Shown one piece after another: positions 8,984 to 10,924 of a stretch of DNA of 32,109 bases (its first letter is position 1; each line of letters begins with the position of its first letter). The position numbers and the translations under genes were made by a program. The notes beneath the pieces were generated by a model that worked only from the letters and a program-made list of their open reading frames with translations, was not told the origin of the DNA and did not search any database. Origin of the DNA: a virus. The stretch is taken from IMG/VR virus record IMGVR_UViG_3300043470_000479, positions 1 to 32,109 of that record. The stretch is one strand, 5' to 3'.

Positions 8984-9166
8984 TTAGCCAGCCAGATATT
9001 GCGCCAGCGCCGTTGCTACTGCGCCGATAATAGTAAGCGCACCAGCAAGCTTGGCTTTCCAGCCGAGTACAGGCTTTGGCTCAGATTCCATAGGCAGGAT
9101 TTTACCTGCAGCTTGTTTCAGAATCGCTTTTTCAGCTTCTTTCTTCAATACGCTTTTCAAGTCCAT
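8984..9166 (-). CDS. small membrane protein of lysis region, 60 aa
   Basis: The last gene of the leftward late operon. The N-terminal half is a charged helix (MDLKSVLKKEAEKAILKQAAG) and the C-terminal half one hydrophobic helix (LAGALTIIGAVATALAQYLAG). The start at 9166 is chosen because GGAG is 7 bases away; the ATG at 9172 is only one base from it. A tail-anchored small protein beside the endolysin fits a holin, pinholin or antiholin, but topology alone cannot decide. Confidence 0.65.
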   Translation of the reverse strand: MDLKSVLKKEAEKAILKQAAGKILPMESEPKPVLGWKAKLAGALTIIGAVATALAQYLAG

Positions 9167-9177
9167 CTTCATTCTCC

Positions 9178-9795
9178 TTAAAGCCAAGAAGCATATTTCT
9201 TGGTTTTCAGTTTGCGGTCAGCCAACCCATGCGGATTTTTGCTGCCGTTAATTCTGGAACTCAGCGCGAGGATTGCAGCATCGCCTGTGCCTTGGTCGCA
9301 GATGCCCCACAGCTTGTTCTTGTCGAAGAACCATAGGGCCGATTCAAAGCATAGCTCACCAGCCACCAGATCAGGGTTAGTCATTACATCAGGGCGTCCG
9401 ATATAGTCGGAGAACGCCTGATAGTTAGCTTTGCCTGTAAGTTGCAGCGCACCACGACCACGATACTTCCAGCCATCACCTGAAGCCTCGTCACCATTAG
9501 CCATACGGTTAGCATAGGCACGATTGGCTATTTTTTGCGGTTGACGTTCATAGGCGCGAGCCAGCGCGTCAGTCTGGAAATACTTACCAAAGATGCCGCG
9601 AAGCCCTTTGGCTCCGTAGTTGAGGTTTTCGCTGAACGCTTTGAAGTTGCCCGATTCATGCGCCGTTTGAGCAAAGAAATGTGCAGCCCGATTAGGTGAT
9701 AGTTTATAAAAAGCCGCAGCCGCCTTAAGTGTACCAGGGCCGAACGCACCATCTGCGGTTACTCCGATTTTCTGTTGAAGGTTAATCAAGCTCAT
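9178..9795 (-). CDS. endolysin, glycoside hydrolase family 19
   Basis: A 205-residue muralytic enzyme. Residues 34-205 match the GH19 chitinase/lysozyme fold: HFFAQTAHESGNF (catalytic Glu 47), a second acidic residue at FSEN (Glu 56), YRGRGALQLTGKANY at 111-125 and ALWFFDKN. The short N-terminal LQQKIGVTADGAFGPGTL resembles one repeat of a peptidoglycan-binding domain. There is no signal peptide, so it needs a holin for release. Its start overlaps the EF-hand membrane-protein gene by ATGA, placing it firmly in the lysis cassette. Confidence 0.92.
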   Translation of the reverse strand: MSLINLQQKIGVTADGAFGPGTLKAAAAFYKLSPNRAAHFFAQTAHESGNFKAFSENLNYGAKGLRGIFGKYFQTDALARAYERQPQKIANRAYANRMANGDEASGDGWKYRGRGALQLTGKANYQAFSDYIGRPDVMTNPDLVAGELCFESALWFFDKNKLWGICDQGTGDAAILALSSRINGSKNPHGLADRKLKTKKYASWL

Positions 9796-10283
9796 TTGCC
9801 AGCCTCTCTCCAGTTAGGAAAATCTTCTTCCGTAACTTGCCCATCGCCGTTGATGTCATAGCGCAAATCTGCTCTATATTTCTCCCAAGGCTCTAGCTCA
9901 TCATCGTCATCATCTTCAGGCTCGTCGATAAAGACTGTGCCTTGTGGATCGTCATAAGCCTTTGGTGCTACCACAGGAGTCAGTTCAAGCGGCGCTTCTG
10001 GTTCTGGCGCTGGCTCTGGCTCTTTGTCACGCGCATTGGCGTTTAGGCTCAAGCCACCAAGTAAGCCAACAAGCGCACCGATGATGGTCTGGAACGCAGG
10101 GTTAATCATCTCCAAGACAGCAGTGCTATCCACAACGTCATTAGGAACGAACATCCCAACAACAAGCGCCAGCACAACGACAAGGATAACTGCCGACAGC
10201 GTGACGATCGCCACGCGCACAACAAACTCAACGGTGTCATTGATTCCGTCCTGCTTGCTTTCAAAACTATTCAGGAAGCTCAT
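9792..10283 (-). CDS. holin-like membrane protein with C-terminal EF-hand
   Basis: A 163-residue protein with two membrane segments (about 19-46 and 61-80; the second INPAFQTIIGALVGLLGGLS), an acidic Pro/Glu linker, and a C-terminal calcium-type loop DINGDGQVTEED at 143-154, with D143, N145, D147 and D154 in EF-hand/dockerin positions. Start ATG 10283 has AAGGAG upstream; a longer frame overlaps the neighbour. Membrane part and location immediately before the endolysin suggest a holin or its regulator. It is a paralogue of the 100-aa protein upstream. The EF-hand tail is unusual for a holin and its function is not known to me. Confidence 0.65.
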   Translation of the reverse strand: MSFLNSFESKQDGINDTVEFVVRVAIVTLSAVILVVVLALVVGMFVPNDVVDSTAVLEMINPAFQTIIGALVGLLGGLSLNANARDKEPEPAPEPEAPLELTPVVAPKAYDDPQGTVFIDEPEDDDDDELEPWEKYRADLRYDINGDGQVTEEDFPNWREAGK

Positions 10284-10569
10284 CTTTCTCTCCTTCATCT
10301 GGCTTCTTGGGCTTAATCGATCCGCTGCCCTGCCCTGCCATAAGTCCTGCCAATGCCCCGACAATGAACGTCGCTATCGGGTTAATCAGCTTAAAAAACT
10401 CCGCATCGTTTGGGGACTGGCCCTCCATTGGCTGTGAAACAAATATCAGCGAGTATAGCACAGTCGCCACGATAAACATCAACGTGAACGACAGGACAAC
10501 GCCGACAATGAAACGTAGCAGTTCCTCTGGCGACCAATACTTAACCTTCTTCGACAACTTCTTCTTCAC
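10267..10569 (-). CDS. holin-like membrane protein, 100 aa
   Basis: Two membrane segments: about 20-44 (FIVGVVLSFTLMFIVATVLY) and 61-79 (LINPIATFIVGALAGLMAG), with a Lys-rich cytoplasmic start and a charged tail. The second helix matches that of the next protein (INPxxxxIxGALxGLxxG), so the two arose by duplication. The start is GTG 10569, overlapping the lipoprotein gene by 29 bases; there is no strong ribosome site, so coupling is likely. The size and topology fit a class II holin. A holin/antiholin pair with its neighbour is plausible. Confidence 0.65.
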   Translation of the reverse strand: MKKKLSKKVKYWSPEELLRFIVGVVLSFTLMFIVATVLYSLIFVSQPMEGQSPNDAEFFKLINPIATFIVGALAGLMAGQGSGSIKPKKPDEGEKDELPE

Positions 10570-10735
10570 CTGTATCTATCAGCCACTCAGTGCAATAGCC
10601 CATAGCGATGCAGCGAGGCTTCTTACATAGCTCATCCTGCCAGTTCGCAGGGTCTTGGCAGTCATAGCGGTAGCGATCTTCACAAGCAGCAAGCACTAGC
10701 AAAGACGCAATGGTTGCAGCACGCAAATATCGCAT
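10541..10735 (-). CDS. small lipoprotein of the lysis region, 64 aa
   Basis: A signal peptide MRYLRAATIASLLVLAAC has a lipobox LAAC with Cys 18 as the lipidated residue. The mature part is DRYRYDCQDPANWQDELCKK with four more cysteines (26, 37, 42, 48), then an acidic tail. The motif D-R-Y-R-Y-x-C-Q-D-P-x-N-W is one I know from phages of several marine and freshwater bacteria, beside lysis genes. It is not Pro-rich like Rz1, so an o-spanin role is only possible. AAGGAGG lies 5 bases before the ATG. Confidence 0.8.
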   Translation of the reverse strand: MRYLRAATIASLLVLAACEDRYRYDCQDPANWQDELCKKPRCIAMGYCTEWLIDTGEEEVVEEG

Positions 10736-10744
10736 ACGACCTCC

Positions 10745-10924
10745 TTAGACGCCCTTTTGCAGCACGCTTACTAGTATGCCGATCAGCAATACAATAATTG
10801 TGCCGCAAGCAGATATGCCAAGGCTTTCGATTCGCTTCATACGCGCACAGATACTCTCGTATCGAAATGCACAGACTTGTTCGTGCGTGTTAAGCTGCGC
10901 CTGTGTTTCGTCAATGCTAGCCAT
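10745..10924 (-). CDS. small tail-anchored membrane protein, 59 aa
   Basis: A short gene read directly from the minus strand: MASIDETQAQLNTHEQVCAF starts a charged amphipathic helix containing RYESICARMKRIESL, then a hydrophobic helix ACGTIIVLLIGILVSVLQ at the C-terminus. This 'HEKVCxxRYxxIxxRxxRxE + one TM' pattern is a recurring phage type placed near the lipoprotein and lysis genes. XhlA-like holin partner or inner-membrane spanin are candidates. GGTGAG precedes the ATG, and the stop lies just before the ribosome site of the lipoprotein gene. Confidence 0.72.
   Translation of the reverse strand: MASIDETQAQLNTHEQVCAFRYESICARMKRIESLGISACGTIIVLLIGILVSVLQKGV

Follow-up and report, generated by a model that had tools for sequence, protein, structure and literature searches.

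The lysis region of this virus raises the question of why a small membrane protein encoded directly before an endolysin should end in a calcium-type loop, and how that protein is related to the two-helix protein encoded before it. Phage lysis has its central clock in the timing of the holin, and a conserved loop of this kind beside a cell-wall-cutting enzyme suggests that calcium may help to decide when the cell bursts. The window, by which is meant the whole stretch of DNA analyzed, is a virus contig of 32,109 bases; its portal protein is P22-like, which makes it the contig of a P22-like podovirus. The cassette lies on the minus strand, where the gene order is X59, LP, P2, P1, EN, and H67, with the following features.

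10745..10924, minus strand: X59, a 59-residue single-helix protein, a cassette member in some loci only
10541..10735, minus strand: LP, a small Cys-containing lipoprotein-like ORF (LVLAAC), partner of P2
10267..10569, minus strand: P2, the second two-helix protein, 100 residues from GTG, phrog_25359 (function unknown)
9792..10283, minus strand: P1, 163 residues, a membrane hairpin of two helices followed by an acidic linker and, at the C terminus, an EF-hand
10149..10244, minus strand: P1 helix 1, residues 14-45 (AlphaFold2 model)
10029..10127, minus strand: P1 helix 2, residues 53-85 (AlphaFold2 model), containing INPAFQTIIGALVGLLGG
9891..10028, minus strand: P1 linker, residues 86-131, acidic and hypervariable
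9807..9890, minus strand: P1 EF-hand module PWEKYRADLRYDINGDGQVTEEDFPNWR, residues 132-159
9822..9857, minus strand: predicted calcium loop DINGDGQVTEED, residues 143-154 (PROSITE pattern and ligand pN/pS)
9178..9795, minus strand: EN, endolysin, GH19 chitinase/lysozyme (PF00182, E = 4e-9; phrog_181 endolysin, E = 7e-57)
8984..9187, minus strand: H67, a small lysine-rich protein with one C-terminal helix, downstream of EN

Both ORFs singled out in the initial annotation, P1 and P2, are thus present on the minus strand where it had placed them. The 3' end of P2 runs into P1 over 17 shared bases, and the stop codon of P1 overlaps the start of EN as ATGA. P1 begins at an ATG with a good ribosome-binding site, GAAGGAGAGAAAG, ahead of it, and no dual start was seen in it. 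In P2 the GTG lies in AGGTGA at Shine-Dalgarno distance from a second start, and the true start is probably the TTG at 10557, four codons on, with the GTG forming part of the Shine-Dalgarno sequence; a dual start resembling that of lambda S (M-K-K-M, GTG-AAG-AAG-ATG) was considered for P2 and rejected, GCG replacing GTG in about one-quarter of the homologues and the GTG falling within AGGTGA. Neither a signal peptide nor a SAR was seen in EN on inspection of the sequence by eye, and an endolysin that has no visible export signal should need a holin. The N-terminal part of X59 resembles NCBIfam NF048001 (GTA head formation protein, RCAP_rcc01685 family) at an E of 3e-4, which is below the cut-off.

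P1 has the build of a small holin-like membrane protein, with two long helices in the AlphaFold2 model. The motif INPxxxxIxGALxGLxxG, said in the initial annotation to be common to the second membrane helix of both proteins, occurs as INPAFQTIIGALVGLLGG in P1 and as INPIATFIVGALAGLMAG in P2, and the modeled helices at residues 14-45 and 53-85 place it in the second one; the INP portion is not strict, since VNP and VGP occur among P1 homologues, and the helix region around INPAFQTIIGALVGLLGG is kept both in these homologues and in the bare hairpins described below. An acidic linker follows helix 2, as had been noted, but it comprises about 46 residues (86-131) rather than 60; across the P1 family it ranges from 20 to 67 residues with a net charge of -5 to -22. 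The calcium-type loop is located at residues 143-154, with Asp143 and Asp147 in the positions claimed for them and EN directly after the gene. The stretch between the helices contains on average 0.09 Lys plus Arg and 2.9 Asp/Glu, and each outer flank has about 2 Lys plus Arg. Because basic residues are so few between the helices, the N and C termini are predicted to be inside, with the EF-hand facing the cytoplasm, a prediction of moderate strength because the flanks are also acidic.

The loop in P1, DINGDGQVTEEDF, has the 12-residue DxDxDG-type form of PROSITE PS00018, with ligands at positions 1, 3, 5, and 12 and a hydrophobic residue at position 8, and is the single match to the full PROSITE EF-hand pattern among all ORFs of at least 50 codons in the window. 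When the P1 tail was shuffled, the full pattern arose in 0.09% of cases and the strict form in none of 200,000. Among 322 complete P1 ORFs (169 distinct), 321 contain the intact module PWEKYRNDLRYDANGDGVVDENDFPDWR or a close variant, and the sole exception has diverged flanks but retains the loop. In the 169 distinct sequences, Asp at position 1 and Asp at position 5 are invariant (169/169 each), Asp at position 12 is present in 168/169, and Asn at position 3 in 162/169, the rest having Thr. The pN/pS ratio is 0.009 for the ligands, 0.276 for the other loop positions, 0.084 for the module, and 0.228 for the hairpin, so that no part of P1 is under tighter constraint than the EF-hand. Some of the scans relied on EF-derived patterns, and P1 ORFs fetched through P2 alone were therefore used as a control; the loop is present in all 65 distinct ORFs of this unbiased set. 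The EF-hand reported in the initial annotation is therefore genuine and under strong selection.

In the structural model of the tail, which consists of short helices and a single loop, pLDDT is 91-93 around the loop. Foldseek gave 41 matches of this model, every one to an EF-hand protein or a construct based on calmodulin, but all are below the significance threshold, and the VIA-align search gave no significant match. Matches of the tail to sequences in the PDB are mostly to Ca2+-binding proteins, through the loop, and 22 of 24 members examined give weak Pfam EF-hand matches (best E 0.003, below the curated cut-off) that cover the loop alone. Some members also touch Dockerin_1, below the cut-off; a type I dockerin consists of a pair of F-hand repeats, each of about 22 residues, and has a cohesin as its partner, whereas P1 has a single loop. 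The putative ligand is Ca2+, a prediction that on sequence is not separated from Mg2+.

P1 is present in hundreds of environmental phages, many of freshwater type, with 169-578 confirmed cassette matches in IMG/VR per scan, of which two scans gave 538-578. In 124 distinct P1 loci with enough flanking sequence, EN starts no more than 250 nt downstream of P1 in every case (124/124). LP and P2 are found in 80 of these 124 loci, and in the other 44 P1 occurs without P2. Between P1 and EN, about half of the loci have S55, a one-helix protein of 55 residues (for example L041, 5464-5631, and L067, 5421-5588), and the remainder have nothing; S55 may be a second holin or an antiholin. Downstream of EN lies either H67 or Rz/Rz1, seldom the two together, and H67 could take over outer-membrane disruption in the spanin-less cassettes. 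P2/LP, X59, S55, H67, and Rz/Rz1 are all variable among the P1 loci, and since EN is constant and everything else varies, P1 is the only membrane protein that the cassette always contains. A recognizable 3TM holin was found in none of 327 P1 loci (redundant loci counted).

No named family to which P1 could be assigned was found. With the window protein as query, tblastn gave no match at E ≤ 1 in 50,697 phage records, and the L067-type and type B proteins (see below) were likewise without matches among isolated phages. No holin family in Pfam, NCBIfam, or PHROGs matched P1 above threshold, so that it is not filed in any named holin family despite its holin-like site and build. Its weak Pfam and NCBIfam matches, to DUF4010, TIGR00271, and arsenic efflux proteins, were far below the cut-offs and on hydrophobic stretches and were set aside. 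P1 also occurs on three MAG contigs, each from a different phylum, which are likely to be stray viral contigs.

The relatives of the P1 hairpin were reached through a divergent member, L146, which gave two weak matches, to MW202520 and MW202753 (Manatee Spring). In each of these records an unannotated ORF for a bare hairpin runs into the start of an endolysin gene (L379, MW202520, 2480-2701; L378, MW202753, 2492-2707), the products being of 71-73 residues. Scans seeded with these two yielded 160 further loci and, in all, 123 distinct bare hairpins of 70-75 residues with the C terminus 7-16 residues past helix 2; P1, by comparison, extends for 78 further residues after helix 2 and is not itself a bare hairpin. 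An EF-hand was present in none of the 123. The bare-hairpin profile matches the P1 hairpin with a probability of 99 and a score of 90, whereas 200 column shuffles reach at most 31, and by this profile comparison the P1 hairpin is a member of the bare lysis-cassette hairpin family. The gene downstream of the bare hairpin encodes an endolysin, spanin, or holin in 115 of 122 cases (47 GH108, 33 GH19, 25 M15, 8 Rz, and 2 holin-like); in 105 of them it is an endolysin, from one of three unrelated folds. The holin-like position and architecture previously ascribed to P1 are supported by both its proximity to EN in 124/124 loci and the location of its relatives before endolysins of three unrelated folds. 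Hairpins that precede at least three kinds of endolysin are thereby united in a single lysis-associated family that annotation pipelines have missed, as the two unannotated ORFs in MW202520 and MW202753 exemplify.

Among the 98 bare-hairpin loci with enough upstream sequence, 52 have a holin of the GTA_holin_3TM type upstream, and because half of the loci thus lie beside a recognized 3TM holin, the family could be one of antiholins or accessory proteins. When 24 bare hairpins were compared with holin families, three gave weak matches to PF16083 (best E 0.019) and one to PF07332 (E 0.0021), all below the cut-offs.

A scan with the EF-tail alone uncovered a second type of hairpin, designated type B, represented by 30 distinct sequences that have a diverged hairpin (MEDKLMDARIKALLMAARTMAFVICTITIAMIAGLFVSNEIIDNKDVFGLLSYVMTSVVGAVAGSYATLMGMK...) and the same tail; these too are encoded before EN, in loci that have no P2. 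The tails of P1 and type B are 88% identical, whereas the hairpins are 29% identical. The type B hairpin profile scores 57 against P1 and 39 against the bare hairpins, with controls reaching at most 24, so that by profile score type B remains distantly related to the hairpin family. Retention of the tail through the change or replacement of the membrane part is an argument for a separate function of the tail in the cassette. Two divergent EF-tail proteins, L554 and L608 (GLFAHDVDNAEIFSIIGPAFNTIVGAFVGLLGG), are seemingly intermediate between the bare hairpins and P1.

P1 and P2 had been regarded as tandem copies of a duplicated holin, one of which had been turned into a sensor. P2 is a member of phrog_25359 (E 1.6e-13); its match to TauE, far below the cut-off and on a hydrophobic stretch, was discarded. 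The profiles of P1 and P2 are similar with a score of 28.0, which none of 200 column shuffles reached (mean 13.8, maximum 25.6), and the bare hairpin L379 serves as an intermediate, matching P2 with an E of 6e-9 and P1 with an E of 2e-5. The bare-hairpin profile matches P2 with a probability of 88 and a score of 33.2 (controls, maximum 29.3), which makes P2, as judged from profiles, the remotest member of the hairpin superfamily. P1 is closer in profile score to the bare hairpins than to P2, and in a tree the P1 sequences form one group and the P2 sequences another, each bipartition having a support of 1.0. The two are also distributed independently, P1 being without P2 in 44/124 loci and about 50 distant P2 loci being without P1; in the latter, P2 adjoins GH19, M15, or GH108 endolysins, 3TM holins, or Rz. 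A recent tandem duplication is rejected on these grounds, and the distant kinship and separate occurrence indicate that P1 and P2 are old relatives. The idea that one copy became the sensor lacks support in that form, because the EF-hand joined the bare-hairpin lineage and not a copy of P2, and is found also on a second hairpin type in loci without P2.

Taken most simply, P1 would be the holin itself or an indispensable component of the lesion. The best joint explanation of the observations is that P1 is a membrane protein in the holin slot, with a cytoplasmic Ca2+-responsive tail, that acts positively in forming the lesion; this reading is tentative and is assigned a probability of roughly 0.4. 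Free cytoplasmic Ca2+ is normally low, and while the membrane is intact the empty and strongly negative tails would block packing of the hairpins. A first leak would allow Ca2+ to enter and fill the loops, which would neutralize part of the charge of the tails and pair the tails of neighboring subunits; EF-hands normally act in pairs, and here there is one per P1 chain. Such pairing would drive or lock the lesion, from which EN would be released all at once. The more specific proposition that the hole-forming protein is itself calcium-gated, by a sensor tail grafted onto at least two holin-like hairpins, is doubtful.

Several other roles for P1 have to be weighed against this reading. Many bacterial EF-hand-like loops are structural, and the loop in P1 is short and single, as it might be if it were a constitutive metal site, for Ca2+ or Mg2+, that serves to fold the tail and does no sensing; however, its ligands show almost no drift in 169 sequences in which the linker varies freely, and its predicted location is the cytoplasm, where free Ca2+ is low, so that a purely structural site seems rather improbable. 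Somewhat less so, but still unlikely, is that the EF-tail is a docking arm that would hold the endolysin, or some other partner, close to the membrane in the manner of a dockerin, for delivery of the enzyme at the lesion. The same GH19 endolysin family follows EF-tail proteins in 124/124 and 79/80 loci, conservation is far higher in the tail than in the hairpin, some members touch Dockerin_1 in Pfam, and the long, flexible, hypervariable linker resembles a tether; against this, the same endolysin family occurs also without the tail, in loci that have P2 only, a single F-hand amounts to half a dockerin, and no cohesin-like domain was seen in EN with Pfam.

P1 might instead be a Ca2+-dependent antiholin or lysis timer that restrains the true hole-former, whether P2, S55, X59, or H67, until the Ca2+ level changes. 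The bare relatives often adjoin a recognized 3TM holin (52/98), as an antiholin might, the cassettes contain several other small membrane proteins, and the tail is strongly acidic, the tails of lambda holins being regulators according to the account in PMC12817945. Such a role is nevertheless somewhat unlikely, as P1 cassettes are without a 3TM holin and have no membrane protein other than P1 in common, so that the partner of the antiholin would need to vary. In the window no cognate holin for such an antiholin was recognized. Very improbable is a function outside lysis, for example as a virion, superinfection-exclusion, or membrane-remodeling protein located there by chance; the neighboring P2-LP pair of unknown function (phrog_25359) would be compatible with this, but the constant position beside endolysins of unrelated folds in different phages would not be expected.

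The proposed positive role in the lesion has partial parallels in known systems. Holins with two TM helices (class II type), such as S21, are likewise small hydrophobic hairpins adjoining the endolysin gene, and the tail of lambda S105 is likewise charged, cytoplasmic, and C-terminal and could regulate timing; the C-terminal tail of the lambda holin is described as a regulatory domain located in the cytoplasm (Blasi et al. 1999, as quoted in PMC12817945). P1 differs from both in having no holin-family match above threshold and in having a long, very acidic tail that ends in an EF-hand. PF16083 (Phage_holin_3_3, LydA, holin superfamily III) and PF07332 show weak likeness to the bare hairpins but none to P1. 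PF11351 (GTA_holin_3TM; phrog_3427 holin) occupies a neighboring slot in related cassettes, being encoded ahead of many bare hairpins and after some P2 genes, but has three helices and an unrelated sequence and is absent from all P1 loci examined. Calcium control has been described for endolysins: LysGH15 has a Ca2+ switch with an EF-hand-like loop (PMC4022735), and EndoT5 is Ca2+-activated (PMC10487532). In these the calcium site is in the enzyme, whereas in P1 the predicted site is on a membrane protein. No EF-hand on a holin or holin regulator, and no ion-sensing holin or ion-sensing regulator of one, was found in the open literature searched. The constraint on the EF-hand of P1, the link to the bare-hairpin family, the occurrence of the tail on a second hairpin, and the independence of P1 and P2 are new, and with a conserved predicted Ca2+ loop on a protein in the holin slot, calcium control of lysis would be testable by point mutants.

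P2, for its part, differs from P1 in lacking an EF-hand and in being accompanied by a lipoprotein, LP being encoded upstream of P2 in practically all P2 loci. A role of LP and P2 as a replacement for the Rz/Rz1 spanin was considered and rejected, both being present together in 31 of 94 loci. LP and P2 form a two-gene module that is found in the lysis regions of many unrelated phages, together with varied holins, endolysins, and spanins.
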